From Mariannaea sp. PMI_226 (Eukaryota > Ascomycota > Sordariomycetes > Hypocreales > Nectriaceae): a DNA stretch of 64,000 nucleotides. Shown here in pieces: positions 15,501 to 43,471 of this stretch (the stretch's first letter is position 1; each line of letters starts with the position of its first letter). The position numbers and the translations under genes were made by a program. Location: NCBI GenBank assembly GCA_024336345.1, contig JANFOG010000007.1, forward strand, positions 1,798,001 to 1,862,000. The letters run 5' to 3'. Below the pieces are notes generated by a model. It saw only the letters and a program-made list of their open reading frames with translations, was not told the DNA's origin and searched no databases.

Positions 15501-15845
15501 GCGTAGACACAACCTCATAAACGATAGCCTTGATTAGCTCGGCGGTGTTGTCGCTTGCACTCTTGGACTTGAACATCTCACTACGCTTGGGAGAAGTAGC
15601 GACGATGACATGATACTTGAGGGTCTGCACCAGATGAGGGTCTGGACATGGTCCTTCGTGAATAACCTGCTTGATCCTCTGGATAGTTGTTGGTTGGCCT
15701 GATGCGAATGAGCGTCTGCAAAGGCTAGGTCCGTCCCCAAGGAGGGCACAAAGAAGGGGCGGCTAGACTTACCAGTGCTCTCCTGTCTCTCGCTCCCGTC
15801 CACGAGAACCACCAAACGTTTTATTGGCGTTTTCTGATCAGCCAT
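12530..15845 (-). CDS. DUF2235 hydrolase-like domain fused to a P-loop GTPase with hydrophobic C-terminal domain
   Basis: This is a 1012-residue fusion protein. Coding path on the minus strand: 15845..15773, 15698..14682, 14624..14159, 14072..13768, 13707..12530. Residues 1-400 form a DUF2235 (Tle1-like) alpha/beta-hydrolase-like domain beginning KRLVVLVDGSE and ending in IHPSVFCVLDRYPRY, but the nucleophile elbow reads FGSGLGAF where active members have FGxSRGAF, so the serine appears replaced by glycine near residue 100. Residues about 425-620 are a GTPase: Walker A CGKTGVGKST (about 432-441), G3 DSRGW (about 482), G4 TKKD (about 552). Around 720-765 lie hydrophobic segments (FLAVSIVAVGTAVPTAGIG, then GIAGCIWG), as in GTPases with a DUF697-like membrane tail. 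The C-terminus is Ser/Glu-rich and then basic, likely disordered. The role is unknown; a sensor-GTPase acting at membranes is plausible. Confidence 0.8.
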
Positions 15846-23016: not shown

Positions 23017-25037
23017 ATGCCTCGAGCGTTTACAAGAACCCCGCTTGCCTGCGATTCATGGTATGTATGCCTTCACGGCAGCGTGCCGGAATGAGTGCCA
23101 CTAGCCATCCCATCCACTGATTCCACTTCCCTTGCTCTTCTCTTCCCCTGCTTACGCCCAAAACTCTTCTGTAGCCGACGACGGAAGACTAAATGTGACG
23201 GCATCCATCCTCGCTGCAAGCACTGTACTAGTAAAAAGCTGCAATGTATCTGGTCTATGCCCAGCCTTGATACTCCGGCCACCAGCGCCTTGGCCCTAAC
23301 CCCTGAGTCTGGGGATGCGGCAACGCTGGTGACGGAGCCATCTTCGGCAGGCGAACCTCCAGAGGGTGGTCTTCAAATATGTATTGATCTCTTCTTTGAG
23401 CGTCACTTCGCCAGTGACTTTTGCTCTTTCGACAGCCGGCCGGACTTTGAACAAAAATGCCGGCAGGATCCAACCCTAGGGTCCTCAATCATCGCTCTCT
23501 GTGGCCGATACCTCACAGCCGACGATGCCCAAGCATTGTTCGGTCTTTCATCTGGCCGTGCTGTCTTTAGACATTACATGTATAAGGCCCGAACCTTGGT
23601 GAAAGCTGTGTCAGATGAGCCGAGTGGTAGCCTACCCCCCCTCCTACAAGTGTTCTGTCTTACCATGGCCAATGCTGACCTTTTGACTTTCGTGGGGGTT
23701 ACATAGTTGCCCACATTCAGGCGAGCCTTATCCTAGCACTTACCGAGCTTCTATCCGACTCTGGATCACGGCATTGGCTTTTCGCAGGCATGGCTATCCG
23801 TATGGCGGAGATCATGCGGTTGAATAAAGAGTTTCACCAAAAGCACAGCCTCAAGGAGCAAGAAATCCGTAGACGGACGTTTTGGGCTTGTCTGCTATTT
23901 GACAGGGTGCTCGCTTACTTTCTCGCCAAACACCGCACTATTCATGACGACACCATCTCTATTGCTGTTCCTGGTACAGATCTATCCATTCTCTATCAAG
24001 AAGAAACTCGGGCCATCACTCTGAATGGCCTGGCAGCCTATCGGCATCCATCCGACCTGGGGTTGAGCTCATATCTGATCAAGACAGTGTGTGTCTGGAG
24101 TGACCTTGCCGACTTTGCTGCGTATTCAAGGAGGCGTCTGGAACCACACCCACCCACCGATCCACGTAGTGCATTCTTGATACGGTCTGATGCGTTGCGT
24201 GCATGGACTGACTCTCTTCCACAAAGCCTGCGTTGGGGTGTTCAGAACTACCGAAACCACCAAGCGCTTGGGCAGGCTAGGACGTTTGTTGGCATGCAGT
24301 TTGTGTTGCATGGTGCGTCTTGTATTGCCCACCAATGTTACCTACCTCATCCAACCCTCTACACCAAGCTTGTGGACTTGGTTGACGCCGCAGGGTGGTC
24401 CTATCTCTTCAGAGATGAAATGCTGGTTGGGACGTGTGTATCCAACGCCCTCGCCATTGGGGAAATCCTTGACTACCTGATGGATCCACAGCAAGGCAAC
24501 GACCAAGTCGTCCTCCAGACCATCTGGGTTGCTGCGTCGACCCTAACTGCCGCAAATGTTTTTCTTTGGATACAGTACGCGCAGGATGAGACGTACTCGA
24601 CCAATGAACTCCGACAGAAGGCTGCACACTACTATAATTTGATTCACCAGCTCACATCATCTTGGGTCTCGGAATGGGATGTGTCCGGTCAGTGGCTACT
24701 CGCTCTTGATGTGATGCATGATTTATACAAAGCAGCCTATCTTGGCGAAGTCAACGAAAGAATTCTCAGGCAGGATAATACACATTCGCCTCGAGACAAT
24801 GATAACTTCCGACCCCAGCCAGGTGACGGATACCCCACACTCATTACTCTTCCTAACTTGCAAGCTTCGATAAAGTTTGCGACCTGCGATACCTCAGCGA
24901 GATCTATCAATATTCCGGCGATTTGGTTACAGCTATCGGGAGGTTGGCCATATGGCTATGCTGGACCGGAATCCGAGATCAATCTTCCCATGGAAGCCCA
25001 GTTTACTGGGAGTGTAGACTCGGCTTCGTCAGTGTAG
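23017..25037 (+). CDS. Zn2Cys6 transcription factor, candidate regulator of the amino-sugar island
   Basis: This is a fungal binuclear-zinc transcription factor of 608 residues. Coding is join(23017..23060, 23175..23626, 23707..25037). The zinc cluster is split by the first intron and is restored as C-X2-C-X6-C-X6-C-X2-C-X6-C (ACDSCRRRKTKCDG, then PRCKHC) at residues about 12-40, at the extreme N-terminus. The 80-base second intron (GTAGCC...CATAG, with branch-like TGCTGAC) bridges an apparent frame break at 23700; after splicing the frame reads PSVAHIQASLILALTELL, then GMAIRMAEIMRLN and RRRTFWACLLFDR, the fungal-specific middle homology region. Zn2Cys6 proteins bind CGG half-sites, and the five metabolic genes to its right carry inverted CGG sites with a 5-base spacer. 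It is the nearest regulator, but the link is inference. It is not the Ndt80-like RON1 type known from Trichoderma GlcNAc clusters. Confidence 0.9.
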
Positions 25038-25173
25038 GCTTTTGTATCCGGTGACTCTGTTCACTGAGACAAATTTCATCATCATCACGCGACCTTGATA
25101 CTCAGGCCGCGGTTTTGGGCCCAGTGCATTTCTACAAAGAGCACATGAGGTCCGCCCACCAACCAGCACCTAG
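25038..25173. other. 3' flank of the regulator gene
   Basis: Together with 25185-25796 this forms a 760-base stretch between the convergent 3' ends of the regulator and the deacetylase. It contains one CGG-N5-CCG site, listed separately, and otherwise nothing recognised. Confidence 0.4.
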
Positions 25174-25184
25174 CGGAAAACCCG
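25174..25184. promoter_or_regulatory. CGGAWWWYCCG site, copy outside any promoter
   Basis: CGGAAAACCCG, identical to the copy at 29737. It lies between two 3' ends, so it does not sit upstream of a gene recognised here. It could be chance, a distal element, or mark an unannotated transcript. Confidence 0.4.
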
Positions 25185-25796
25185 ACACACCCAGGTGTCG
25201 CCCGAATAACACCTCGAATGCAGTCGAATAGTATAATCCGATTTGTTGTATACTCTCATTTCATATGAGATTATTTTATGTTTATCCTCCAGCAGCGATT
25301 GGGTTAGTAGCACCTCGCGCCCCTATTCCACAAACGCGCGAACTCCTGGACTGGGTATACTGGGTAGAGTGACTGAGCTAACGTGTTCCTCGGTAGCAAA
25401 TTCACCTCTCGATACTTTATGAAGCGTGACCCTCCATGATGAGGAGGTTTTGCGGGTTCACTTATGAAAGAAGCGACTTGATTTCCCATTTGCCATCGAC
25501 ATCTTTATGCAGTCACGACTTGGCACCGACCTTACTCTTAGTGGAAGCAAACTATGATGTTATATCAAGATCCAATCGGGAGCTTATGTTTATAGACTGA
25601 AAATCTAAATAACATTGAATTAACTACAGCGTACTTCTTTGCAGTACAACTTTCATCATGGTGACCTTATAAATTCCAAAATTTTCCATCTATCTTTCTA
25701 CAACCTAGAACCATCTGGCCCAGTACCACGGAACCTTTTCAATGACTTCTATTCCTCAAATCTCAATCAAACCTTGCATATTCGCGTCAGGGAGTA

Positions 25797-27216
25797 TCAT
25801 GATTCGTACACCTGCTGTCCAAGCTTCCACACTTCATCAACAACTAGCTGAGAAGCTCCGTCTGGAAGCCGGATCTCAGAAAAGATGACAATATCTGCAT
25901 CTGCACCGGGAGCCAAAGACCCCTTCTTCCCCTCCAAGCCAAGCATGGCCGCCGGCGTTGCTGTGGCGGTCTTCAGAGCCTGGGGAATACTCGTGCCTGA
26001 CCATGCGAGGAAGTTGTTGACGCACTCAATCAAAGTGACACAGCTGCGAGGGAAATGAAAGTTTCCTGTTAGTCGTGTTCTCTTGGACCCAGAAGAGCTT
26101 TGCGTAGTTACATACCTTCCTGCAATCTTGTCTGTTCCCTCCAACTGCAGCGTTGAACCGACCTTTACGATCGTGCTATCAACATTGCCATTTTTCCAAA
26201 GGTATGCTCCATCCGGAAGGCCAACTAGGTGCTGAGCGTCTGTTACTAGGATGAAGCCCTCTGGATGAGCGTTGAAGGCTAGATTAATCGCCGTTGGGTG
26301 GAGATGGATTCCATCAGCGATGATGCCAAAATATGGCCTCGGGTGCTGCTGAGGAGTGCCTAGTGTGCCGAAAATACCAGTGTCACGATGGTGAAGAGGT
26401 GTCATAGCGTTGAACAGGTGGGTAATCATGGTAGCCCCCGCTGCAACGGCTCCTGATGCTTCTTTGTATGTAGCTTCAGAATGGCCAATCGAGCAGATTA
26501 TTCCTTGTTCCCTAAGCCGCGGAATAATGTTCAACATGTTACCACATTCAGGGGCCACAGTGATCTTTCTGATGGGAGCCAAGCCTGCAACTGAGCTTCT
26601 CAAGTTCTCCTCGCCATAGCACGCTTCAAGGTCTTCGAACTTTTGTGCCTGCTGAATTACGTTCACATCATGGATGCCGTTTTTGTTGACATTCAGAAAA
26701 GGCCCTTCAGCATGTACACCGAGAGATTCAGCGCCATCGGTGGCTAGAGGGGATGATGATGGGCGGAGATATGGCGCCAACTAACATATTTACTGGTTAG
26801 CGGTGCGAAAATTCCCAGAAGCTGACAGGCTGACAAACCTTCTGGTATACCTCCGGCTTTTGGCTGGTGAGTGTCGGGAGATATGAGGTGAGTCCTGTCG
26901 AAAGAACCTGCTTGTTGAGTTTCGCGACGCTTTTGGGATACTCGGCAATATTCTCTGGTAACTCAGAAAAGTTGAAGCCGCAGTAACCATTGAACTGAAC
27001 GTCTATCAAGCCGGGGGAGACGATGCGACCTCCGATGTCAACAATTTTGTCAGGAACAGTTGCTTGATCAGAAACTGTCTCGTCGCTAGAGAGGATAGTG
27101 CCAGTGGTTGAGTTGATCCAGAGATCACCAACCTCAAGTTGATCCCCCCTAACGAGACGGCAGTTGGTGAACTTGATAATGCCACTAGGGGCTACGGAGG
27201 AGATTGATATGGGCAT
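25797..27216 (-). CDS. nagA: N-acetylglucosamine-6-phosphate deacetylase
   Basis: This cytosolic amidohydrolase converts GlcNAc-6-P to glucosamine-6-P plus acetate, the second-last step of amino-sugar breakdown (DAC1 in Candida and Trichoderma). Coding path on the minus strand: 27216..26839, 26780..26116, 26043..25797, 429 residues, normal for fungi. Seen: SPGLIDVQFNGYCGFNF near residue 65, the metal-binding HAEGPF, GHSEATY, HLFNAMTPLHHR, the substrate-phosphate region IIADGIHLHP, and the catalytic aspartate in ILVTDAQHLVGLPDG. The last intron joins KIAG to SCVTLIECVNNFL, restoring the usual segment. The next gene upstream is the MurQ homologue in the same orientation. Two CGGAWWWYCCG sites lie 390-440 bases before the start. 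The function is assigned with high confidence from active-site motifs and from the neighbouring deaminase. Confidence 0.95.
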
Positions 27217-27603
27217 GGTGTATAGGCGTCCAGTCTGAGATAGGTAGGAGGGGTTGCTCGTTGGGGACTGGGGCTGAATTGTTGATATTTTAAGCCTTGA
27301 TTCGAACTACATATCAATCAACACCTACTGTAGAAACACGCTCTTATTGGCCGGCTCTTCCTTTCCAGATACAATCAAAGATTTCCTGTACTTGCATCAA
27401 ACCAGAAGCCGTGTCTCTGCCACAAGGTCATCGGGCTTACTGAGGAGACTCTTTCAGTGGACGGAGTTGGTCTGCCACCACCCAAAGCCCCAAAAGGGAA
27501 GGTCAACTTCGGAAGCCATTAGCATGCAAAGGTCTAACCATTTGTGGAGAAGATTTTTTTGCTTTTCTTGATTCATGAGAGAGGATGGGGTCATTGGCAC
27601 GGC

Positions 27604-27614
27604 GGATATCCCGT
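27604..27614. promoter_or_regulatory. CGGAWWWYCCG site 1 of deacetylase promoter
   Basis: CGGATATCCCG, an inverted CGG pair with 5-base spacer, the classical layout for a Zn2Cys6 dimer site. It is repeated in opposite orientation at 27651. Confidence 0.6.
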
Positions 27615-27650
27615 TGCCATCCCTCCACCTTTGCCGGTTCCGGTCTCTAC

Positions 27651-27661
27651 GGGATATCCGT
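27651..27661. promoter_or_regulatory. CGGAWWWYCCG site 2 of deacetylase promoter
   Basis: CGGGATATCCG, the exact reverse complement of the site at 27604, 47 bases away. The pair forms a larger inverted repeat in the deacetylase promoter. Confidence 0.6.
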
Positions 27662-28075
27662 TGTTTGGCGCGGCTCCCAAAAGTCTTCCTATTTCGCCAC
27701 GATTGCGCTCAAGAAAGGTTCGATATTGTACTATCACGATAACCTCGTAACTGAGCGGCGATAATGGTATTTTCTTTTAGCAGAATATCCTACTTTGAAG
27801 AGTATTTGAAGAGTATAGAGACAATCTGTAGTAACAGACTAGCATACAACTTCGGCCACAGATAGACATAATATCGTAAATTTTCACAGACGCTCTTTTT
27901 TTGTATCAGCTGAGCAAACACACATCATTGACACACTCTCTTCCTAGGTTGTTGCTGAACTGGGCATTTGGCTTCAGTCTCATTCCTGGCATATCTTCGT
28001 GACATTTTAGATGATGATTAATTTCTTTCTATGACTCTAAGTAAAATTATGCAGACATTTGTATTGTATGTTCCT

Positions 28076-29360
28076 CTAGTTCAATTTCAGGGCTTGTCTC
28101 AGAGATCCTGATGCTGCTTGTAGCTTCCATCTTCCTTCCTCGGGCGTGCAGCCCAGTTTTGCTACCACGATGCTGAGCTTGACTTGTCCGTCGCAGCTGG
28201 CTAGGATGGCATCTAGCACTTCGTCTCTGCTGATATCTAGCGCTGCTGTTGACGGAACGCTAGATCGGATCACGCGCCTGGCTCTATCCTGTAGCTTCTC
28301 GTTTGACATCTTCAGGTCTACCATCTGTTTGGAAGTTAGTTTGGAGGGGAAGATGATAGGCTATCAAGTCGTGTGCCACTCACCAGATTTCCGAATGTTT
28401 TCCCTACGCGAACTTGCGAGCCAGTAGATATCATATTCAGGATCTGAGAACAGTGTCAGTGCAAGTCCACCATCATGTATATGTAGGTATACATATTTCG
28501 ATGTATATATATATAAGTATTTACGTACCATTTTAGTTGCTGTTCCGGCCTTCAGACGAGTGCTTCCCGTGATGACCTCAGGACCCGTAACGCATTCGAT
28601 CAAAACGTCGCAGAAGTTCCTCAGCGCACTGGGCTGTACGCAAGCAATTCCCACCGTGGCAGCACCAATGGATCGAGCGTACTCTAAACCTCCAAGAACG
28701 TAGGGAGTTCTTCCTGAGGAAGCGATTCCGACAACCACATCGTTCTCATTCACTGGAGGATCCAAGTTCATCAGGTCCGTCTTTCCGGCCTCAACGGAGT
28801 CTTCGGCTCCTTCAATGGCATTTCTGATGGCCCTCTCACCTCCTGCAATCAAACCGATGAATTGCTGAGGGGGAGCTGAGAAGGTAGGTGGGCTGGGCAC
28901 GAAACGTTAGTAAGTAGGCAAGGAGATACGACCAAAAAAGACTTTGGTATGTGTTAAACCACCGTAGAGTATCATACATTTCAGAAGCATCCAATACACC
29001 AAGTCTGTGAAAAATGATCAGTACAGGCACATAAAAAGTAGTCATCAAATAAGGGAATAAAAAAAGTCAATACCTTCCGCTTGTTCCTGCTCCCGTGTAA
29101 ATAACTCGACCTCCATCCAGGATGCGAGGCACAATCGTATCAATAGCGGCAGCTATTTGAGGCAAGCAGGTCTTGACAGCTCTGGATACCGTAGCATCTT
29201 CTTCATTGATAATCTCTAAATTCGAATAAGCAACTCAAGTGTCATGTGTGGGAAATCAATACCTCAACTCACCGCATAATTGAAGCGTTGGAACGACATC
29301 TATGTCCACCGTCTTAGCATTTTTCTGCTCTGTTTGGAGGTCTGCAAGGGCGGAAGGCAT
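28076..29360 (-). CDS. murQ: N-acetylmuramic acid 6-phosphate etherase homologue (MurQ), stand-alone
   Basis: MurQ enzymes cleave the D-lactyl ether of MurNAc-6-P, giving GlcNAc-6-P and D-lactate. Coding path on the minus strand: 29360..29273, 29215..29074, 29004..28978, 28892..28529, 28443..28384, 28324..28076, 309 residues, the length of bacterial MurQ. Seen: the SIS sugar-phosphate motif [80 protein letters not shown] and MVDLKMSN. The two glutamates matching E. coli Glu83 and Glu114 are present (residues 85 and 116, the same 31-residue spacing), so activity is expected. The six exons, one only 27 bases, show full adaptation to a eukaryotic genome. It shares a bidirectional promoter with the deaminase. 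A glucokinase-regulator-like role is the alternative, but GKRP is larger with two SIS domains. Confidence 0.92.
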
Positions 29361-29736
29361 GGTCAAATGTGGCTAGACGTGAAAGCGGTTGTATTATCCT
29401 CTGGTGGTGGGATAAGGTAGAACGACAACAAGTGATGGGCTGTAGATACGGCTTTCAAAAGAGGGAAATGAGGGTACTTAGTCCTGTCAATCACGGTTTT
29501 GACTAGAGTAGGAAAATGGAAATAAGATTATCACGCATCAATTGGCAACTAGGTTAGAGACCCCATTCCATTTGCAGCACCTGTGGCTCTCCAACCTCGC
29601 CAAACTAGACGGTTCAATCTGTTTTGTTGGCTACTACTAGGGAGCTCAGGCGTCGATCCTCTCCCAAGAGGACCCGTATCCGAAAGGAGGGTCCTGTGAG
29701 AAAATCCTGATTAACCACATCCGCTGCTTGAGTGGC

Positions 29737-29747
29737 CGGAAAACCCG
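29737..29747. promoter_or_regulatory. CGGAWWWYCCG site, murQ side
   Basis: CGGAAAACCCG, 377 bases before the murQ start codon. It has an inverted CGG pair with 5-base A/T-rich spacer. Confidence 0.6.
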
Positions 29748-30445
29748 TTCACAGGTGGCGATATTCTGCCTTCTCTCCCCGCCTGTGGAATACCCTTTCT
29801 TTCATTATTAGTCAGACACAACGAGATAAAGGAAATCTGAGATAGATTAGCGGAAGCTTAGAGATAATAACCATAAAAAATTAGCGTGTCGTATTCAACA
29901 AGATTCTCATGTAGATATATAAGTTTGTCAAGTGTGAATCCATCATGGATACCAAACTGATCCATACTCAAAATAGATATTGTTGGGCACGTGAAGTAGT
30001 GTTCGCAATGTGCAATGTGCCACTGAGTCATAGTCGTTTGGATCACTCTTTCAATTACAGGCTAATGCATAAGCTGGACGCTCATTGAACACGTAAAACA
30101 TTGTCTTGGCGGCATCTGAATGGAGACTTCCGAGCACTTACAGGAACTTGATCTGTATCTGTTCTTTTTAGTGCACCACTCATGGTGTCTCTACTTGATC
30201 AGCTGACGCCAATAGCCATGGATATAGGCAAGGAGGGGCTGTACTATTGAGATATCCAACTCCTGGCTCATTAACCTCTAATTGACAGGACCCCGGGTCA
30301 CCCGACAACCACTAATCACCCAGAATCGGAAATGATAGCACGGGTTTATCATCCTCGGTAATTTATGCTGGTTTCATTTCTCTTTGCAGATGGCCGTGCT
30401 GACATGGGTCGGGATGTCCCCGCCACTACTTGGGCCACTAACCGC

Positions 30446-30456
30446 CGGATAACCCG
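30446..30456. promoter_or_regulatory. CGGAWWWYCCG site, deaminase side
   Basis: CGGATAACCCG, about 320 bases before the deaminase start codon; identical in core to the sites at 35664 and 35729 (reverse orientation). Confidence 0.65.
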
Positions 30457-30778
30457 CTCTTTGATCACCAGTGATAGACACCGAGAGAGGTAGCTGGAGG
30501 AGTGAAACGTGCCGAAACCATTTGTCCGCTGAACACTTGAGAAGTTGAAAGCCTGTGAGAATTCTTCAAATGCTCTATGATTTTGCCAATCATCGGGGCA
30601 CCATCTCCGTGCGGTGGAGCACCAAGAATCCGTCGGACAGTGGGTAGTTGTATGTAAACAATGCTGTATTTCGATATATGGACTACAAGTTCCTCTTTTA
30701 CGGTAGTGTGGTTAGCTCGGAATAAAGAATACACAAACTCTAAAGGCTTACCATCGCTGCTCACTTACACCGTCCAAT

Positions 30779-32038
30779 ATGAGACTTATCGTTCGTGATG
30801 ATGCCAGCTCGGCGGCTGAGTATGTCGCAAACTACATCTTGAACAGGCTTAGGGAGTTTGATCCATCTCCTACTCGACCTTTTGTTCTCGGACTTCCAAC
30901 TGGGAGCAGTCCGATTGAGGTTTACCAGATCCTCGCAGCTAAGTATAAAGCCGGAGAGGTATGCGGACAGATCAAGCGTTTCTGGTCGGGCATGGGCTGA
31001 CTTGGGAACACTCAGGTTTCATTTCAAAATGTCATTACTTTTAATATGGTTAGTAAATCTATATTCAAATTGTTTAAGTTGCTTCATCATCAGGCTACAC
31101 CAGCGTATCTGTCTGCTCCTAATTCACCCTACGTTTGAGTTTCCTCTTTTATTTTACTAAGATGCCCAACTTGACAGGATGAGTATGTTGGTATCCCCCG
31201 GGACCATCCAGAAAGCTATCATTCCTTCATGTGGCGGCACTTCTTTTCACATGTCGATATCCACCCAAAGAACGTGCACATTCTAGATGGTAATGCACCC
31301 GACTTGGAACTCGAGTGCTCTCAGTATGAGGATGCAATTCAAGCAGTGGGAGGTATCGACCTCTTCCTCTCTGGGATCGGTGAGGACGGCCACGTTGCCT
31401 TCAACGAACCCGGGTCTAGTCTGTCGAGTCTAACTCGTGTCAAGACCCTGGCCTATGACACCATCCTTGCCAACTCCCGGTTCTTTAATCATGACGTCGA
31501 CCAAGTACCCAGAATGGCGCTCACAGTCGGTGTCAAAACGGTGCTTGATGCTAGAGAAGTCGTCACAATTGCCCTGGGTGCCCGAAAAGCCATGGCTTTG
31601 CAGAAATGCATAGAGGGTGGTATCAATCATATGTGGACACTATCCGCGCTCCAGCTTCATAGACACTCCATGGTTGTTGCCGATGAGGACGCGACACTGG
31701 AGCTGCAAGTTAAGACAGTCAAGGTACCTCAAGCCTGCCAGTCTGCTGCCCAGATGAACGTAAGAGTAGCTAACGTGCAACAGTACTTCAAATCCATCGA
31801 ACAAATCGCTCGCCAGGAGGGCTTCGACCAAACTATTTCAAAGAAGTTGCGTCAGGGAGCTAAGCCTGAGCTTTCCAATGGTATCTTGAAGATGGATAAG
31901 GCTCAGTTTTCTGATAACCTTCAATCTGGCCAAACTGATTCATATTTATTGCGTGTAAACACTCCGATGCTCTCAGCGCCATCATCTCGGCCAGTAACAC
32001 CTGATTTGATATTTGACAACATGGGATCCCGAATATAA
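30779..32038 (+). CDS. nagB: Glucosamine-6-phosphate deaminase/isomerase
   Basis: This enzyme converts glucosamine-6-P to fructose-6-P and ammonia, feeding glycolysis (DAM1/NAG1 in fungi). Coding is join(30779..30958, 31016..31048, 31178..31723, 31784..32038), 337 residues; bacterial NagB is about 266, and the extra C-terminal 60 or so residues, Ser/Pro-rich, are common in fungal forms. Seen: [14 protein letters not shown] (phosphate loop), VITFNM joined by splicing to [18 protein letters not shown] with the catalytic aspartate, [24 protein letters not shown] with the active-site DGH, and [10 protein letters not shown]. The second exon is only 33 bases. The last intron (31724-31783) is 60 bases, lacks a stop and is in frame, so retention would insert 20 residues before YFKSIEQIA. 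It is divergent from murQ and shares its promoter. Confidence 0.95.
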
Positions 32039-33144
32039 GGGAATGTATTTCTAATGAGAATTAGCTGGGGGGCCCGATGTCTAGAAAGTCGAAGATTTAG
32101 ATACTGCTTATTTTGATGGAAATTGAATTACATAATTATAGGACGAGCAAGGCTGAGATGCGTGGCGCTGCAACAACAATAACAACAATACAGGTTCATT
32201 CCTAGCCAAATAGACAAATACATATACATTTAGTCCATCCCCACCACTCAATCACAGTCCTGTATTAAGTTTCATTCTATGTGGGAGTCCCTATAGACGG
32301 GGAGGGGTGGAGTTAAGGTGCATGGATTGATCCTCACTGCATATGTTCTATTAATTGCTATACCCTTGTATGTGCATATGCTGTATCCTCTTACCACGTG
32401 GAACAAATGTTTAAATCACAGTCTAAGACAGGATGGGTGATAGGTTGCTTGTTCTGCCAGGAATTGTTCTTCACTTGGCTCTCGTACTATAAGTTCTACT
32501 TGTCTCATTCCACGTTTGAGATATTGTCGCATTACTGGTGATTTCGTTCCCCAAATCTTAAATGTGTCGACGGATTTACTTTTATCATGGACTCAGCAAT
32601 CACGCTGCTTGTTACTATCATTGATACTGTACCTTATGTTAGACGAGAGATGGAAATGGTATGACTAATCGGGTAATTTTGCCATATTGGACAATTCGAG
32701 CAAACTTATGATGAAAGGAATATAAACACCTTCTGCCTCAGCCTAGATATTAGTCTGATTTTCTCATCATCAATACATTGGTCTATTCAGGCTGCATTCT
32801 GTTGGTCCCTATTTCATAGCGTGCAGCTTGTTTAATACCTTATGATTGCTACCCTAAACAATCTTTCCTGTTTGAACTAAGCCTCTATCTTGAACGGAAA
32901 CCCAGGAGAGGATTGAGTCAGATGGACTTCGCTCCAATAGTCTTAAACTTGTCTGGAAAGAAGCATGTTGGTTGGCTAGGAAGAGGGCTAAATTTTCAAG
33001 TAGGCACAATTTTCAAGTATCATCTGACTCGTGCTGTATTATTCAACTCAAATTGACTACATCTTGCCGAGGCATCTATGACTCTATAAATTATTCAATA
33101 TCGTACAACTAATCTTTCAGAACGCAACAGTGCACCTCCTGTAT
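32039..33144. other. 1.1 kb between convergent 3' ends
   Basis: AT-rich 3' flanking sequence of the deaminase and the MurQ-kinase fusion. No gene, repeat or CGGAWWWYCCG site was found. Confidence 0.5.
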
Positions 33145-35299
33145 CTAATTCAAATCTTGAGCTTCGCGACGTAATGATTCAGCAGCAGCCATGGCGGGCT
33201 GTTGCACAGCATAGACCAGGGGGAAGTTGATGCCTTGACTTGAAAGATGTTTGTCGATGAGCTGTCGATACGTCTCGTTCTGTGTCAAGCCCCCAGCTAA
33301 CACAAGCGCGGTATTGGATGGGTCGATATGCTGCTTGGTGATGAGCGAAGTCACTAATTTCGCTAAACTGCGTGCTCCGCTTTCAAGAATCGTCTTTGCC
33401 GCCGGAGAGGTTGTGTAAGTGTCGAACACGATCTTGGTAAAGTTGGCAATATTCTTGAATGGATCGTTTGTATGACCTTGTGCCCCAGCAGGTGCTTGTC
33501 TGACCACATCCAGAAGATCACCCCCAGAGTCCGGATAACTGACAGCAAATTGTGCTGTGATTTGCTTCACCAAAGGATCATCACCCAGATGTTGTGAGTC
33601 TTGGCCCTCTGGGCCTGGGCCAGTGCCATCAACCTCTCCAAGATCCGTAGCCTCTAGCGCAACCCTAAGGCCTTCATTGCCGACCCAATATCCTGACCCT
33701 TCATCTCCAAGCAGCGGGCCCCAGCCGCCAACGCGGGCAGTGCGGCTGAACCGGTGTCGATCTTGCCTCTTGAAGCTCATAGCCACAGATCCTGTGCCTA
33801 CAATTAACACGATCACCGAGTCGACGCCTGGCTGGTCTGCCACAGATGCGGCAAGAAGGTCGACGTCAGCCGTTGCTTGCAGCTTGTTCGTGTCTTCGAT
33901 CCGCAGCATCTTTATCAGTCCAGATCTGATCAGGGGCTTCACCGCAGGGCGGTCGTATCCTGCCATGCCAACCCAAACGCTTGATATTGGCAGCGCCCTG
34001 AAAGGCTTTCCGGCCAGTATAGGGTGCGCATCAACTGCTCGCTGGAGAGCATCTGAGACAATAGACATGGCTGTGCTGACACCAACCCTGGAGACATTGC
34101 ACGGCTTGCCCTCGCCTATCCATGCTTGGCCGGAACTGTCCATGATGACCGCCTTGCAGCTGCTGCCGCCTGCATCGACAGCAACAACAAAGCTTTCTCC
34201 TCCTTCTCCCTGAGCATGTCCGTTCTGCATTGATTGTCGACTTGCTTCCTCAATTAAACCAGCCAGAACACCATTATTCCTCTCCAAGCTCTTACGTGCT
34301 TCAACAATAGATGTTTGCAAGATGATTGTAGCCGCCGCCAGCTTCACGCTACCGTCACAGTCCTGTAACAGCTTCTCAAGCTCCTCATCTGACTGTGAAC
34401 ACAGAGAACCTCCGACAAAACGTAATATGTTCTTAGATCTCTGCCGCAGTTTAAAATTTGAGCACTTCATGTCGACCATCTGTCTTTCGTGTTAGTATAT
34501 GCTGCTCTCTGAGAATGCTCCTCTGCTCGCAAACAAGATTGCGTTTTATACATACCATGTTCCCATACGTCTTGCCCACCTTGATCATGATGCCCGTGCT
34601 AATCATGTTCAGGGCCATCTTCGTCGCCGTCCCGGCTTTCATTCTTGTGCTCCCTGTCACAATTTCGGGGCCTGTGACTGGTGCAATCACAAAGTGCGCA
34701 TTGCCCTCTGCCTCAAGTGCACTTGGTTGAACACACACAATCCCAACCGTCACGCAACCCAAGGCGTTGGCATGAGCAAGGCCGCCTAACACATATGGAG
34801 TTCGCCCAGATGATGCAATGCCTATCACGCTATCTGTCTCTGGGTCCAGCTGGAAAGAGTCGAGATCCCGCACTGCTGCACTACGATCATCCTCGGCACC
34901 CTCAACTGCGTGACGGATCGCACCATCGCCTCCGGCAATGAGAGCAACAAATCTGTCCGAGGGAACTGAGTATGTAGGCGGAATTTCGGAAGCGTCTAGT
35001 ACGCCGAGTCTACCAGATGTGCCTGCACCAATGTAGAAGACTCGACCTCCCAGACGAACGCGCTTGGTCAGGGCATCTATTGCTTCAGCAATATCTCCCA
35101 GGCATGGTTCCACTGTAGCAGCCACTGAAGTATCTTCGCGGTGGATGGCTTGTACCATCTCCAGTGTAGACACCCGGTCTATGAGGGCACTGGCTGGATT
35201 TCGGCCTTCAGTTTGAAGGCTGCCCAGCTCGTTGCCTGACAAGCCCTTGGAGATGCCATTTGGCTGCTGTTGTTGTTGGTGGTATTGTTTAGATGACAT
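33145..35299 (-). CDS. Bifunctional MurQ-like etherase fused to BadF-type GlcNAc/MurNAc kinase
   Basis: This 692-residue fusion is encoded by 35299..34556 and 34479..33145 on the minus strand. Residues 1-330 are a MurQ/SIS domain: [73 protein letters not shown], and MVDMKCSN right after the single intron. The glutamates matching E. coli Glu83/Glu114 are residues 105 and 136. Residues about 345-690 are a BadF/BadG/BcrA-type sugar kinase like human NAGK and clostridial MurK: VVAVDAGGSSCKAVIMD (phosphate loop), SVWVGMAGYDRP, IVLIVGTGSVAMSF, RVGGWGPLLGDEGSGYWVG and VLAGGLTQNETYR. Known: MurK phosphorylates both GlcNAc and MurNAc at C6, and MurQ then removes lactate. Inference: the fusion carries out both steps. 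The start is the ATG at 35299, just ahead of a glutamine run; the frame extends upstream without ATG. It shares a bidirectional promoter with the permease. Confidence 0.92.
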
Positions 35300-35663
35300 T
35301 GAAGTTGTAATTTCGTGTATACTGAAGCCCAAGGCAGACGGAACTGCTCCTATCGGCTCGTGGCCAAGCCGCAGTTCTTCACTTTGAGAGCCATTCACCA
35401 GACCCAGGCAGACTATCTAACTTGCCCCTGGGGCCCCGTATTACCGTATTACGGTGGCGAGAAAGGAAAAAAAGATAGCAAAAGTGGAGGACTAATGGGT
35501 TAGGGAAGCCAATAGAAGGCTTGACTGGGGAAATGAACCCAACGTTGCAGCGGATCTTTTTACTCCTGGACTCAGGCTTTGCAATCTAGTCCGGAGAAAT
35601 CAACTCCACGATCCCCAAAGAGGGTTAACCTGGGGATTATTTGTCAAGGGGGACCACAGGATC

Positions 35664-35674
35664 CGGGTTATCCG
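35664..35674. promoter_or_regulatory. CGGAWWWYCCG site a of the triple
   Basis: CGGGTTATCCG, reverse complement of CGGATAACCCG. First of three sites in the divergent promoter. Confidence 0.65.
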
Positions 35675-35690
35675 CAGCACCCAAACGTGG

Positions 35691-35701
35691 CGGATTATCC
35701 G
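35691..35701. promoter_or_regulatory. CGGAWWWYCCG site b of the triple
   Basis: CGGATTATCCG, 27 bases after site a, start to start. It is the only copy with T at the pre-CCG position. Confidence 0.65.
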
Positions 35702-35728
35702 CTCAAAGGGGAATTTGCTGCATTACTG

Positions 35729-35739
35729 CGGGTTATCCG
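35729..35739. promoter_or_regulatory. CGGAWWWYCCG site c of the triple
   Basis: CGGGTTATCCG, identical to site a and 38 bases after site b. It lies 270 bases before the permease start and 430 before the kinase start. Confidence 0.65.
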
Positions 35740-35998
35740 CCAGGTCGCCTGACTCTCTGCACAAGAATGGCTGGTAAACCCGATATCTGTTTGCTAATCT
35801 GGTCCCGGTCCCATGGGCAAGGCGAAACCCCGTATACCCCACAAAGCCATGCATGCTTGATGATCGCCGCAATGGAGCACAGATGTCAGAGACTATTTCC
35901 ATGACGGTCCCGCCCCCAGACTTGATCATCGAATTCTTCACATCTCAGAGTTCCTGTCTTTCCAGCAGACAACGACTTCAAACCTGTGAACGCAAGCC

Positions 35999-37611
35999 AT
36001 GGATGACAAGCACAACTCAACGGAGCAGCAGGTCAGCTCTGACCCTGGGCTGAGCAGAGCCGAGGAGGGTCTCCCTGAGTCGAGGTCTCGTATCGTCCGC
36101 ATCTATGCCCACCCGTGGACGCAGATCTTGCTGATCAGCTTCATCTGCTTCTGTCTGCCTGGAGTACGTTGTCTAACTATTGCAAATGATTCAGAAACCT
36201 CCCTCAAATGCGAACTACTGTGTACTGACGGTGGACTTTAGATGTACAATGCCCTTGGAGGACTTGGAGGATCTGGCCAGGTTGACCCTACTGTCGCTGC
36301 CAATGCTACAGTTGCTCTCCTGTCATGCACTGCCGCAACTGCTCTCTTCATCGTTGGACCCATCTTCTCCTATGTTGGCCCACGAAACTGTTTCATGATT
36401 GGCGGATGGACCTATGCCTTGTATAGCGGCAGTCTGCTCAATTTCAACCGTAAGACCTATTGATTCCTCCGTCCTTGTTTCCCTGATACGGACGATGCTC
36501 GAGTCCCCTTTTCTCGTTTCTTTGTTAGCTGACACGAGGGGAAAAAACAGATCACGACAATGGCGCATTTGTCATCGCTTCCGGTGCCATTCTGGGTATT
36601 GGAGCCTCTTTCTTGTGGATCGTCCAAGGTGCTATGATGACCACCTACGTGGTCGAGTCCCAGAAGGGCCGCGCCATCGCTGCTTTCTGGATCATCTTCA
36701 ACCTGGGCGGCGGCATCGGTTCTTTGGCTGCCTTCGGACTTAACTTCCACAGCACGAGTGGCACCGTCAGCGACAGCACCTACATCGCCCTGATGGTCAT
36801 TATGCTTTTCGGCTGGCTGCTGGGCGTCTTCATCTGCAACCCCAAGCGTGTCAGACTTGCGCAATTGCACGCCGCCACGGAGACAGAGAAGACTACTATC
36901 AAGGGCAACCTCGAAATGGCCCTCAAGACCATCCTGAAGTGGCGTGTTGCGTGTATGCTTCCTCTCTTCTTCTGTGCCAACCTGTTCTACAGCTACCAGC
37001 AAAACAACGTTAACGGAATGACCTTCAACATCCGTTCCCGCAGTCTCAACGGTGCCCTGTACTGGATGGCTCAGATGCTCGGTGGCCTCATCATTGGAGC
37101 TCTGCTCGATTTGCCCTTCCTGAAGCGACCTGCTAGAGCCCGCCTTGGCTGGGCCTTCTTGCTCATCACTGGAATGGCCATCTGGGGCGGTGGCTATGCT
37201 TTCCAGAAGTGGGAGGACGTCCGCCTCGCCAAGGGCTTGAAACAGGACCTCGACTACACTCAGGGTTCCGTGAGCACTGGCCCCATTTTCCTGTACATCT
37301 TCTACGGCGCGTACGATGCGCTCTGGCAGGGATTCTGCTACTGGTTGATCGGCACTGAGTCCAACTCTACCGGCCGTGCTGCCGTGCTTGTTGGTGCCTA
37401 TAAGACCTTCCAGGCTACCGGTGGTGCTATGGCATGGCGTATCAACGCGCTGAAGGTCTCGCCCATGCACCAGCTGGCGATGAACTGGGGTCTGTCCATG
37501 GGTGCCCTGTTGATTGTCCTGCCAACTGTGTGGACCGTTTCGGAGCATACTGGTGCCGAGGCGGAGGCGGGAGCTGATCCCATCGCGGCTACTGAGAAGT
37601 CTGTAGAGTAA
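35999..37611 (+). CDS. UNC93/DUF895-type MFS permease, candidate GlcNAc/MurNAc transporter
   Basis: This is a multi-pass plasma-membrane carrier of the major facilitator superfamily. Coding is join(35999..36163, 36242..36449, 36551..37611), 477 residues, normal for the UNC93-like branch. Seen: a hydrophilic N-terminus of about 38 residues, first helix ILLISFICFCLPG directly before the first intron, MYNALGGLGGSGQ (the family's first loop), TAATALFIVGPIFSYVGPR, GASFLWIVQGAMMTTYV, GRAIAAFWIIFNLGGGIGSL, FYSYQQNNVNGMTFN, and a C-terminal half with further helices ending in LSMGALLIVLPTVW. Fungal GlcNAc permeases (NGT1) lie in catabolic clusters, and this gene shares a promoter with an amino-sugar kinase, so GlcNAc or MurNAc is the inferred substrate. 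Codon use is more GC-rich at third positions than in neighbours, suggesting high expression. Confidence 0.88.
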
Positions 37612-38234: not shown

Positions 38235-38891
38235 TTAATCGTCACGTCGCTTTTCTTTGTGCAGAGTCACAGCTCCCGTGAAGAAATCTCCAGACCCGGT
38301 GTTCCTGTTGTTGGTTTGTTGACCATAGTCGCCAACAATGCCGTCATTGCTGTAGACGTTTGTTGTGTTACCCGATGAGCCCTCAAAGAACGTCTTGGGT
38401 ACAGATGAAGGCACTTTCGCTATGTCCTCCACGGCCTTTGTCAGCTTTTCGACTTGGTCCTTGGTTGCTGCTTTAAAGACTTGATGTTCTGACAGGATCT
38501 GAACATCCTGCAGAATTGCTTTCAACAGTACTTCCACCTCGTTTCCCTTGCCAAGTTTACGCATCAGAGTGTAGTAGACAAGTCTCCAGGTGTCCAATTT
38601 TGGGAGAATTTCTTGGACGATGCTCTCGAGTCGGCTGATTCTCGCAGTGCAGGCCTCGACGGTTGGCTTAATGGCTGCTAGAGAGTTGTCATCGGGTGTT
38701 TGCCCCTCCATCTCCTTGTGGGCAATCTCCAAAATATCCTTTGCCACCGGAAGCTTTTGCGCAACCGCCCGGAAGGCCTGCGGCAGCTCGTCTGGGTTTT
38801 TTACGGTTCGGTACAGGTCGATAATCATTCCAGAGATTGCGATCGAGTCTGCAATGAGACCGATGATGAGGCCAGCTTCAGCACCAGACAT
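38235..38891 (-). CDS. SesA-domain protein with C-terminal amyloid-like motif
   Basis: This single-exon protein of 218 residues has the form of a small effector paired with a fungal NLR. Residues 1-165 form an alpha-helical SesA-type domain (N-terminal STAND-associated domain): it opens SGAEAGLIIGLIADSIAI and contains LPQAFRAVAQKLPVAKDIL, the most typical SesA segment. The last 50 residues change to Gly/Asn/Thr-rich low complexity with TTNVYSNDGIVGDYGQQ and NTGSGDFFTG. That tail resembles the N-terminus of the NACHT protein encoded divergently 645 bases away (TTNIWGERHIVGNHNTQ, NSGSGTF). Known: in such pairs the short motif forms an amyloid fold templated by the NLR and triggers cell death through the effector domain. 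Inference: this is the effector of that pair. A basic end (KEKRRDD) follows the motif. Confidence 0.85.
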   Translation of the reverse strand: MSGAEAGLIIGLIADSIAISGMIIDLYRTVKNPDELPQAFRAVAQKLPVAKDILEIAHKEMEGQTPDDNSLAAIKPTVEACTARISRLESIVQEILPKLDTWRLVYYTLMRKLGKGNEVEVLLKAILQDVQILSEHQVFKAATKDQVEKLTKAVEDIAKVPSSVPKTFFEGSSGNTTNVYSNDGIVGDYGQQTNNRNTGSGDFFTGAVTLHKEKRRDD

Positions 38892-39536
38892 TTTGCCGTT
38901 GAGAAGAAGTGAGCTGTTCAGTATTCGAGTTGGAGATGATGAGAATTGGTATTGAACGCGATAATAGCAGTGGGGAAGAAGCTAACGCTCTCTTCTTCTA
39001 CTTTGTATGACTTCTCTTAATTTAGCCGAATTGAGAGTTGAATGAAGAGAGTGCAGAGGAAATCGGGCTTGAGGCCCAACGCCAACCAATATGGTCGCCT
39101 ATTAGGCATTCTCTTCCCCACATCAGCCAGATTCAGCTTCATGCAGGTCTGCCTTCTTGAGTGATTTATCGCCTCATCGTCTGACCAAAATGTATCCCTG
39201 TGGCGCTTGGGCGGCTGATGGGCTACTCCGTGATTGGCCAAGATAGATGTATCGCAGAGCGCTGCTTCAACGTATCCTCCAATAGGACCTGGGAAGGCTT
39301 AGGCACTGCTGATCAGCGTAACAACGCGCCATAGATAGCCGCTCAGCTTCTGCCAAGGATGGAGTTTGCCTTGACTACTTCAGGCCTGGGAGGTGCATGC
39401 GGGGCGGGAGTTCTCGCTTGGAGCTGGTACGCATGGAATATTGATTGATGAGTGCATCTCTTGACTCCGACTCTGCGGATTGTCGCGTCCCTCCAGTCCG
39501 CATCGAGCAGCAGCTCGTTCGTATACAGCCTCTGTA
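38892..39536. promoter_or_regulatory. Divergent promoter of SesA effector and NACHT-ankyrin genes
   Basis: 645 bases between divergent start codons, with no gene features. The head-to-head layout is itself evidence for joint function. Confidence 0.5.
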
Positions 39537-42500
39537 ATGAGCGAAACCAGTCGGACAACGAATATTTGGGGAGAGCGACATATTGTGGGGAACCATAATA
39601 CGCAGGAAAACTACGAAAACTCTGGCAGCGGCACTTTCATCGCCAAGGCAGAGCATGTCACGGTCAAGAATATTGGTCCCTCTGGTGAGTGTAGCCTGGA
39701 CACAAAGATGCCGAGAAGTCGACTCACATTGTCGCAGAGGAGGAAGAGCTTCTCAGGGCATGCATGAACGAGCTGCCCTTGACAGATCCCAGGGTAGATG
39801 TGACAACGATCCGGGCGAACAAGGAAAGACGACTCCCGGGGACTTGTGAATGGATCTTGAATAGGCCCGAGTACAAGAGCTGGTCCGATGGCAAAGGCGC
39901 TCAAGATCTCTTGCTCATCGGCGGTCCCGGGATTGGAAAGACTATGCTAAGTATGTTCCTGGTCGACACGTTAAAGGAGAAGATTCAGCAAAGCAAGCAA
40001 ATGCTGGTTTACTTCTTCTGCGACGACAAAGATGCGCGGAGACGGAGCGACACGGCTATTCTACGAGGACTCCTCTACCAGTTGCTGGACGGTGAGCTCT
40101 GCAAGCACATGCTGGCTCCGTATAGGCGGCTTGGAAAGTCCCTCTTCACACAGTTTGACGAGTTGGCTCAAATATTCTCTAGTGTGCTCGAAAGCATTCC
40201 CAATGGACCAGTGCATATTCTCATAGATGCCATGGATGAATGCGGGGCAACCTCTCTTGGGAGAGTGATGAAGCTGCTGGGCGATTTAATGACCCGAAAG
40301 GCGAAGATGAAACTTCTTGTCACCAGTCGACCTCATCGCACGGTAGAAGATTGTTTCAAAAAATGTGTACAGGTTGACTCGGAGCGAGTCAAAGAAGATG
40401 TTGACAGGTACATCAAGTCCAAGGTAAAAGATCTCGCCAAAAATGAACGGTACTCCGATGACCTAAAGGAGAGCGTTCTTTCCGCGCTGCAAGAAAGGTC
40501 TGATGGCACATTCCTGTGGACTTCCCTTATTCTCGAACACATTTCGGATGCAGCATCAGATGAAAAGGCCGTCCTGAAGACGCTGCAGGTGCTGCCTCGC
40601 AACCTCAACGGCGTTTACCGACGCATCCTCTCCGAGATAGAGAGGAAGTATTCCAAGGAAGCCAGGTTCGTTTTTCGGTTGCTGGTCGCTGCCCGTCGAC
40701 CGCTTACTGTTGACGAAGTTGACGTCGCCTATCATTTATGGACCAACAAAGAAGCAGCATACCTTTCAGATCATCAGATCCGCAAAGACATATACAAGTG
40801 CTGCGGTTCCCTTGTCTATTTAGATCGTGAGCACAGAACCGTTAACTTCTCGCACCAATCCGCTAAGGACTATCTCATGAATGCCGACCATCAGTTGGCC
40901 TCATCAATCTATTTCATCTTCCCTCTTGCCACCATAGTGTGGTTTGCTCTCACCACCAAGAAATTTGGTGGTCTCTTTTACGTCTCCTCGACCATGCTGA
41001 CCGCAGTGACCCTCATACCATATGCACGCTCTGTATCAAATATTATTGAAGCATTTAGGTCGATGCTTGATCCGGACTTTGTTGGTTGCAGATATCGTGT
41101 TCTTCTGGATGAATCGAACCTACAGTTATTTAAGATCTGCTGGCAGTACCTCGTTTTGGTACTACCCTCGGAAAAGAAATCTCAGCCATCAGATAGGGCA
41201 GATGCTCGCAAAGCTCTCGACAAAAATAAACAATTCCAATACGCCAAGGAAGAATGGATAGAACACGCCCTAGCTTCGAGTCCGGCCTCCATTTCTCAAG
41301 TCTTTTGGGCCAGTGACGATCTGGAGAGGTTTCCTACCCTTCGAGAGGAATGGCTTCTCGCATCAGCTCGCCAGGGTCACTTGCGAGTGTTGAATCTTCT
41401 TCTCGAGAAGGGAGCCAACGGCAGGGCGGAAAGTGAAGATGGTCTGAGAGCCATAGACATGGCCGCAGAAAATGACCATTGGGATGTGGTACAGGTCCTC
41501 CAGAACAAATATCCGGACCTTATCCCGAAGAAATTCCAGGCCGTAGCGGGGAAGGGAACTGTGCCTCCACCGGATCAATGGACTGACAACAACAAGGTGG
41601 TTTCTAAGTGGCATCAAAATTTTACGGAGATCAGAGATGATCGTATTCTCCTGGGAGTGACCTGGGGCCTCCGACTTGTAGCTCTCGCTCTCATATGGTG
41701 GATGAAGTGCCTGCCTGAACAGTTCCTCTCATCTTTCAAGGCTAGGAGTGGCCCCTGGATACTCTCATTTATTTTCGACCTTGGTCTAGACCATGTTGGG
41801 GAGGAGTCATGGAGTGTTTTTCTCGTAAGTCAAATAGGAGGGCTAGTGGTCATGGCCATTCCAAGCCTCATTCTGCTGTCTTTCTTTCAGTGGTGGGCTC
41901 ACTATTTCATTTGTCGGATGAGGGATCAAGTGCGCAAAGACGGAATAATCCGGTCTGCCCTTGGCTTTGCTCAGGCGGTCGGGCGATTTGCCCTCATCGA
42001 GACCTTGGTACTTGCTTTAGACGAGGATATTCATCGTTTGGCTAAAATCCTGCTCTGGTTGCCTATGAAGCTCGACGCCAGGGACAGTGATGGTGACACG
42101 CCGCTCCTCGTCGCAGCTCGTCGCAAGAGCGCCGTCATGGTCAGCTATCTTCTCGACAAGGGTGCCGACCCAAATTATACGCCAAGCAATGGAACGCCCC
42201 CGATATGCTTTGCTGCGAGAAAGGGATATACCGAAATCGTCAAGGTTATTATCGACACCGGAAGGTTAAATCCAAACAGTACTGACTTTCGAGGGTGCAC
42301 TCCAATGATCCTGGCCGCGTGGGAGGGGCATCACTTGATAGTAGGTCTACTGTTGAACTGCGAGGGATTCGATGTGAATCGCGTGGACATTGACGGCGAC
42401 TGTGCCTTAAACTCTGCCGCTTTCAAGGGCCGAGACAAGGTTGTGAAAATTTTACTCAACAGTGGAAGAGCGGACGTCAACATCAGGAATAAGCGTGCTT

Positions 42501-43471
42501 TTACGCCACTGCTTTCCGCGCTCGACAGTGCGCACGAATCTACTACTAAGATTCTTCTCGGTGCCGACAATGTTGATCTCTCTTGCCGAACGGATGAAAA
42601 TCGAACAATGCTTTCTTATGCGGCTGCGAATGGGTACGAGGATGTTGTCAAAATCCTGCTTCAGCACTCTGAGCTTGACCTGAATGTTAGATGTTCGAGA
42701 GGCTACACAGCTTTGGCATACGCAGCAAAAAATGGACATACCGCCATTGTTGAGGTTCTCCTCAGGTGCGCCGGTATCGATGTCAACGTACAGAATGTGT
42801 GGCAGGAGACTGCGTTCTTACTTGCCGCTGGAAGAGGCCATGAAGCTATCGTGAAACTGATAGCTGCTCGTCCTGAAGCAGATCTTGACCCGAAGCTTGG
42901 GCCAGGTCGGAATGCCATGTTTTATGCTGCCATGAGTGGACATGAATCTGTCGTCAAGTTTCTGATAGACAACACGAACGTCGAAGTTGATCGCAACAAA
43001 CACTTTGGCAAGACACCACTGGCATCTGCAGCCAATGGAGGACATGCAGGTGTTGTCAAGTTGCTGATGGAAACTGGCAAGGTGGATGTCAACAACAGGG
43101 ACAGGTGGGACTGTACTCCCTTCCTTCGAGCAGCTAAAGGGGGGCACGAGGAGGTAGTTAAGCTCCTCATGAAGGTTGAAAATCTTGACTTAGATCCCAG
43201 AACCGAAGTGCACCGGACTCCGCTGTCGTATGCCGCGGAAAAGGGCCACGAGAGCATTGTCACGCTTCTGCTTGAGAGTAAAAAAGTCGATGTCAATTCC
43301 AAAAGTAAGGAATTGAAGCAGTCACCACTGTTTTATGCGATTAAATACGAACATGAGAGGATAGCAGATAAGTTGCGGGAAGCGGGAGCCACGATAACAG
43401 AAGAAGAAGAGAGGGAGGCTGAGGAGGCTGACAAGGAGGGGGGGCACCGGTGGTCCAATGATTATGAGTAG
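39537..43471 (+). CDS. NACHT-ankyrin STAND receptor with N-terminal amyloid-like motif
   Basis: This is a fungal NLR-like protein of 1293 residues. Coding is join(39537..39684, 39738..43471). Exon 1 encodes almost exactly the Gly/Asn-rich motif (TTNIWGERHIVGNHNTQ, NSGSGTF) shared with the SesA gene. NACHT NTPase follows: Walker A LIGGPGIGKT (about residue 108-117), Walker B HILIDAMDECG (about 209), sensor LLVTSRPH. A winged-helix region (FRLLVAARRPLTVDEV) comes next. Hydrophobic helices occur at about 437-480, 687-706 and 743-773. Ankyrin repeats occur as one short block (about 583-643) and a long array of roughly twelve repeats (about 827-1270; e.g. GDTPLLVAARRKSAVMVSYL). Inference: ligand sensing by the repeats, oligomerisation through NACHT, and templating of the SesA partner. 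A stop-free GTAAGT...TTTCAG segment at 41825-41890 may be an optional intron. Confidence 0.9.

Follow-up and report, generated by a model that had tools for sequence, protein, structure and literature searches.

The 64,000-nucleotide window analysed here (C23:1798001-1862000 of the Mariannaea sp. PMI_226 genome, searched as 42.2 Mb on 25 contigs) contains, at positions 23017-37611, a six-gene island that we consider very likely to be a dedicated, jointly regulated system for N-acetylmuramic acid (MurNAc) catabolism in a filamentous ascomycete, with predicted substrates and predicted regulation. A bacterial-type set of pathway functions is encoded together there: a kinase, an etherase, a deacetylase, a deaminase and a candidate importer for the predicted substrate. 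In the proposed route, an UNC93-like permease would import MurNAc, the kinase half of a MurQ-kinase fusion would convert it to MurNAc-6-phosphate, and the MurQ half of the fusion, together with a stand-alone MurQ, would cut the lactyl ether to yield N-acetylglucosamine-6-phosphate (GlcNAc-6-phosphate) and D-lactate; NagA would then free acetate and NagB ammonia, giving fructose-6-phosphate, and a Zn2Cys6 protein would control the island promoters via a CGG-N5-CCG element. This succession from kinase to MurQ, NagA and NagB had been put forward in a preliminary description of the DNA, and it is now backed by an extra NagA/NagB set, a fusion-permease neighbourhood, a common promoter element and fold comparisons. 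More broadly, several ascomycete classes probably own a dedicated, undescribed MurNAc system composed of a kinase-etherase and a neighbouring UNC93-like permease, to which Mariannaea would add a second etherase, NagA and NagB, and a Zn2Cys6 regulon, with fusions having arisen independently in planctomycetes.

Six intron-bearing genes were modelled between the ATG of the regulator at 23017 and the stop codon of the permease at 37611, and they are the six genes originally claimed, within the same limits and now as spliced models assigned to Pfam or NCBIfam families. The predicted introns were set by hand from the reading frame and family motifs; all are GT..AG, and each coding sequence is open and a multiple of three. 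The order is regulator (23017-25037, + strand; exons 23017-23060, 23175-23626 and 23707-25037), NagA-type GlcNAc-6-phosphate deacetylase (25797-27216, - strand, three exons), stand-alone MurNAc-6-phosphate etherase MurQ (28076-29360, - strand, six exons), NagB-type glucosamine-6-phosphate deaminase (30779-32038, + strand, four exons), MurQ-kinase fusion (33145-35299, - strand, two exons) and, divergent from the fusion gene, an UNC93-like major facilitator superfamily (MFS) permease, the candidate MurNAc importer (35999-37611, + strand, three exons); the encoded proteins have 608, 429, 309, 337, 692 and 477 residues, respectively. The fusion and permease models are identical (100%, full length) to Mariannaea sp. 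PMI_226 database proteins P0001 and P0241, for which the same contig size, 2552786, is given. In Pfam searches with single exons, the candidate island regulator matched the Zn2Cys6 family PF00172 (24.6 bits, cut-off 21) and PF04082 (60.9 bits, cut-off 23), and the permease was over the cut-off for PF05978 (29.3 vs 22.9 bits) and just under that for PF07690 (33.0 vs 33.4 bits).

For the etherase step of the proposed route, two MurQ units are available. Both pass the 302-bit cut-off of the curated NCBIfam equivalog TIGR00274, the stand-alone protein with 362.1 bits and the fusion, whose MurQ domain spans residues ~24-327 (34243-35230, - strand, with the intron 34480-34555 inside), with 337.5 bits; the stand-alone protein aligns with Haemophilus influenzae MurQ (4lzj) at 276 bits. 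A six-frame search of the genome for GKRP_SIS_N found two places, both inside the island. The catalytic glutamates, which we take to be E83 and E114 in Escherichia coli MurQ, are aligned with the bacterial pair in both proteins, as the preliminary description had noted, and all 45 fungal fusions that were aligned have both as well. For the stand-alone MurQ this depends on a 27-base exon (28978-29004, - strand) which carries the first catalytic glutamate and is missing from the database model P0121 (300 residues), leaving that model without ten residues including the glutamate. A Clonostachys relative (P0122) has the motif with this residue. Since the exon restores the first glutamate, the stand-alone MurQ looks intact in our prediction, and the public model would wrongly suggest a dead enzyme. 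On the strength of equivalog-level similarity and intact glutamates, we infer that both the stand-alone protein and the MurQ half of the fusion are MurNAc-6-phosphate etherases. The two share 53% identity over 302 positions; this divergence and their membership of two old fungal lineages in the tree described below rule out a recent tandem duplication inside the island.

The preliminary description had placed the kinase half of the fusion (residues ~343-692; 33148-34197, - strand) in the family that includes MurK, and this is borne out by a single-exon match to PF01869 (79 bits, cut-off 31.5) and by a fold of the BadF/NAGK/MurK type, the sugar preference being a prediction. It is the only BadF-type kinase that the genome search found. 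In a structure model of the fusion (predicted local distance difference test score, pLDDT, 84.4; predicted template modelling score, pTM, 0.58), the kinase fold matches 8zo3 and 8oqw and the MurQ fold matches MurQ; in both sequence and fold, the kinase half resembles the Clostridium acetobutylicum MurNAc/GlcNAc kinase, human NAGK and Tannerella forsythia MurK. With the NCBIfam NagK equivalog NF046058 the fusion scored 52.7 bits, under the cut-off of 370. MurNAc kinases are described, in the available part of PMC10465942, as having small residues at the lactyl pocket in place of Glu or His. At the lactyl-pocket residues of that paper, in our own mapping, which counts residues backwards from the GD motif, the fusion has Gly-Gly-Trp, like both other enzymes. 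Across 45 fungal fusions, G499 is found in 44, G500 in 45 and W501 in 45, but D424 is Asp in 36. Family, fold and pocket suggest a kinase that would make MurNAc-6-phosphate, and possibly GlcNAc-6-phosphate as well.

This possible dual capacity bears on an alternative that we regard as unlikely, namely that the genes form a broader amino-sugar or GlcNAc island, with mainly a GlcNAc kinase and a GlcNAc carrier, in which the etherases clear accidental traces of MurNAc-6-phosphate. NAGK-like kinases accept GlcNAc, structures of human NAGK and of C. acetobutylicum MurK have, by their titles, been solved with GlcNAc, and NagA and NagB are common to the GlcNAc and MurNAc routes; the island NagA is just over the TIGR00221 cut-off (229.9 vs 225.65 bits) and its NagB well over that of TIGR00502 (384.6 vs 236.9 bits). 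Against this, the genome has a complete canonical GlcNAc cluster elsewhere (C19:2543-2558 kb), with its own hexokinase and without the island element, of which the surrounding 28 kb hold no copy even when one mismatch is allowed. By Pfam that cluster includes a GH3 protein, an NDT80-family factor, a deaminase and a hexokinase; its deacetylase was called by similarity to the island NagA, and its NagA and NagB lie ~4 kb apart. A hexokinase, an Ndt80 factor and a GH3 protein are not among the island's six genes. The island NagA is 51-62% identical, by exon, to the NagA of the C19 cluster, and outside the island the genome's best match to the island NagB is likewise the one in that cluster (77% over residues 60-264). 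Because the GlcNAc cluster is present separately, the island NagA and NagB form an extra set, dispensable for plain GlcNAc use; moreover, two etherase genes, one of them kinase-fused, that are kept across many fungi are hard to see as a side function. A third NagB-like gene (L021, C25:286380-287213), 64-70% identical by exon to the island NagB, lies outside both clusters. According to the preliminary description, the kinase of known fungal GlcNAc clusters is of the hexokinase type and these clusters are not known to include a lactyl etherase. This agrees with the Trichoderma reesei cluster, hxk3-dac1-dam1-ron1-nag3 with ngt1 unlinked or linked, as given in the available text of PMC4950302, in which the terms 'muramic' and 'BadF' do not occur; the C19 cluster has the same make-up as this Trichoderma cluster.

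As to the source of the MurNAc, the use of bacterial peptidoglycan itself, which the preliminary description had proposed, is not supported by our searches, unlike that of free MurNAc. Pfam searches of the genome for GH25, GH24, Amidase_2 and NlpC/P60, which were intron-blind and covered these four families only, gave no matches, which weighs against a peptidoglycan-fed catabolic system. Aspergillus fumigatus secretes a peptidoglycan endopeptidase of the NlpC/P60 family, according to the part of PMC12332128 available. MurNAc may be supplied by bacterial turnover, by the enzymes of neighbours or by fungal enzymes that escape these searches. The missing hydrolase matches also fit an alternative in which the island would recover or detoxify MurNAc or muramyl compounds originating in living bacterial partners rather than provide food, and in people NAGK phosphorylates muramyl peptides (PMC9477735, in the portion available). 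We nevertheless hold this to be improbable, since the island has genes for the whole route as far as fructose-6-phosphate and ammonia, plus a permease, which points to catabolism.

It is scarcely credible that 'glucokinase regulator family', as databases label these proteins, is correct and that the MurQ-like parts are kinase-binding regulators of the GKRP type, a reading that is ruled out by domain architecture, with one MurQ unit (~24-327) and a kinase (343-692) in the fungal protein vs tandem SIS units in ~600 residues and no kinase domain in vertebrate GKRP, and by equivalog-level MurQ scores far above the GKRP scores (248-276 bits against solved MurQs vs 82.5 at most against GKRP). In favour of this reading are the label itself, the Pfam domain name GKRP_SIS_N and the reported descent of GKRP from MurQ. 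At the aligned glutamate positions of Xenopus GKRP, the N-terminal half has Ser at the first, and the C-terminal half has Glu at both, so the glutamates alone do not separate MurQ from GKRP.

Joint regulation of the catabolic genes is suggested by a shared promoter element, CGGGWTATCCG, that belongs to the inverted CGG-N5-CCG sites, a kind bound by Zn2Cys6 factors. Two exact copies lie upstream of NagA (27603-27613 and 27650-27660, together spanning 27603-27660), one exact copy 333 bases upstream of NagB (30446-30456), and three copies in the promoter region that the divergent fusion and permease genes have in common (35664-35739; those at 35664 and 35729 exact, that at 35691 with one mismatch). 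A one-mismatch copy, CGGAAAACCCG, precedes the stand-alone MurQ gene by 377 bases (29737-29747), and the gap into which the regulator and NagA genes both run with their 3' ends has one more such copy (25174-25184). With up to one mismatch, the 11-letter form was found nine times in the window vs 1.21 expected, a number reached in none of 100 shuffles; eight of the nine keep both CGG and CCG, and all eight lie in non-coding island DNA. Because the motif had first been spotted by eye, any 11-mer was allowed to compete in an open contest over five island intergenic stretches (the convergent gap 32039-33144 left out), which CGGGWTATCCG won with 8 members, 300 shuffles giving 2 to 5, and 7 once. 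In the same stretches, CGG-N5-CCG words had 8 members vs 2 at most in 1000 shuffles. The 12-letter pattern CGGRWWAYCCCG was near chance (5 found vs 2.03 expected, reached in 5/100 shuffles). Genome-wide, 28 exact copies were counted, five of them in the island, and 18 of a control pattern read backwards. Altogether, we infer that the island promoters are most likely controlled by the Zn2Cys6 protein by way of their CGG-N5-CCG element.

Seven of the 23 places with the element outside the island were inspected; six of these seven have a single site, and no further regulon member was found at the seven. The seventh, L134 (C24:2414573-2420583), has four sites (3001, 3031, 3615 and 4226; one exact and three with one mismatch) in 6 kb with no open reading frame over 101 residues; its flanks showed no clear target by eye, no family search having been made there.

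The fusion and permease neighbourhood is conserved in fungi. Homologs were taken as the best 120 of 6892 database matches for the fusion, of 614 for the permease and of 7999 for the stand-alone MurQ, so that a missing row is no evidence of absence. Precomputed Pfam assigns both domains to 119 of the best 120 fusion rows, and the organism, where one is given, is always a fungus (judged by eye; about a dozen rows give none). Wherever the fusion and permease rows print locus tags of the same series, the tags are consecutive, in 11 of 11 species: Cladophialophora psammophila, C. chaetospira, Capronia coronata, Aphanocladium album, Xylaria grammica, X. hypoxylon, X. curta, X. multiplex, Nemania bipapillata, Conoideocrella luteorostrata and Metarhizium humberi. 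In addition, contigs of equal size pair 34 of the best 120 fusion rows with a permease row (32 with the species given). The co-location across fungal genomes that the preliminary description had proposed to look for is found for the fusion and permease, the linkage outside Mariannaea being read from printed tags and contig sizes, not from maps or orientation; the stand-alone MurQ shares an equal-size contig with a permease in 3 of the 31 fungal rows compared (Mariannaea, Cephalotrichum gorgonifer and Niveomyces insectorum). The distributions of stand-alone and fused MurQ in fungi seem to differ: members of the Fusarium solani group and Clonostachys have a stand-alone MurQ (rows P0122-P0149), yet no fusion row among the best 120.

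Phylogeny suggests an old history for these genes. In a quick-type tree of 136 MurQ sequences, in which the SH-like approximate likelihood ratio test (SH-aLRT) was the sole support measure and no protist MurQ was included, all sampled named fungal MurQs fall into one clade together with four metagenome rows (SH-aLRT 99). Within it, a stand-alone lineage of 13 rows (96) includes a basidiomycete yeast, and a fusion lineage of 27 rows (93) is joined by a stand-alone protein from the yeast Trichomonascus; planctomycete, chloroflexota and streptomycete sequences are the neighbours, at weak support (67). In the kinase tree, the fungal kinases likewise form one clade with no firm bacterial neighbour, L030 being nearest (support 88). 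The likeliest course suggested by these trees is that MurQ entered fungi anciently from a bacterium, was then duplicated and then gained the fungal kinase fusion.

Among 104 bacterial MurQ loci chosen for their similarity to the fungal fusion, 29 have a BadF-type kinase, five of these being repeat fetches of a place already counted. In two distinct planctomycete genomes, a single open frame encodes both MurQ and a BadF-type kinase (L114, corresponding to G118, with 648 residues; and L033, corresponding to L117 and G002, with 633 residues). This is a lower bound, as 20 loci were fetched in a search that matched 125 of the 199 genomes of the phylum. The L114 protein is 38.7% identical to the fungal fusion over residues 25-689. 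One clade of fungal fusions and L114 was rejected by the approximately unbiased (AU) test (p-AU 0.00036, for a group chosen with the tree already in view), so that the etherase-kinase fusion apparently arose independently in fungi and planctomycetes, as judged from L114. Inheritance of a ready-made fusion from planctomycetes is thus unsupported, the long-branch L033 standing outside this test.

Other features of the window lie on either side of the island. Genes resembling NOD-like receptors (NLR) are found near it at 38235-38981 (-), 39695-43471 (+) and 48600-50863 (+), a set with one SesA-domain and one NACHT-ankyrin protein, besides adjacent NB-ARC/DUF7779 and TPR frames. At 14671-15762 (-), a fungal protein carries a Tle1-like catalytic domain of the type VI secretion system (T6SS; PF09994, 88 bits). 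Dense tandem repeats with units of 18, 36, 54, 87 and 123 bases occupy 58345-59444, with long overlapping open reading frames on both strands and a strong strand skew.

Soil scientists use muramic acid to trace bacterial remains, and to our knowledge it is usually unlinked to fungal metabolism. If our reading is right, the UNC93-like permease would become the first MurNAc importer known in eukaryotes, and moulds feeding on bacterial remains would have a direct route to the carbon and nitrogen of bacterial walls. The name 'glucokinase regulator family protein', under which databases list many such proteins, would then need correction, as would a Monascus annotation that, in the available part of PMC9159588, puts murQ in the chitin biosynthesis pathway. 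The question is genetically testable in Aspergillus nidulans, which has such a sequence among its database proteins (P0180, ANIA_11038). We found no report of fungal MurNAc catabolism in the open-licence literature of PubMed Central, outside which most subscription journals lie, and none is described in the available parts of PMC9159588, PMC12584764, PMC10465942, PMC4950302, PMC3613411, PMC7052976 or PMC12332128. The reactions are already known; the fungal island, with its fused kinase-etherase, UNC93-like permease, extra NagA and NagB and common element, is unreported in the literature found.

With the canonical fungal GlcNAc cluster the island shares the NagA and NagB steps and the clustering of catabolic genes with a regulator, but in place of the hexokinase, Ndt80 factor and GH3 protein it carries MurQ and a BadF kinase. 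Bacterial-type etherases in eukaryotes have a precedent in the MurQ of the free-living protists Naegleria gruberi and Bodo saltans and of diplonemids, for which digestion of bacterial walls has been proposed (PMC7052976); the passage available in that paper concerns the etherase gene alone and mentions no fused kinase, cluster, permease or regulator. Planctomycete MurQ-kinase fusions have the same domain order as the fungal one, in one open frame. A further parallel is the bacterial MurK and MurQ route of C. acetobutylicum and T. forsythia, which employs both of these enzyme families and passes through the intermediates predicted here, and among the bacterial loci examined murQ commonly lies beside a BadF-type kinase gene. 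Unlike these bacterial loci, the Mariannaea island is eukaryotic and intron-bearing, fuses kinase and etherase in one protein, and includes an UNC93-like permease, a Zn2Cys6 regulator and both NagA and NagB.

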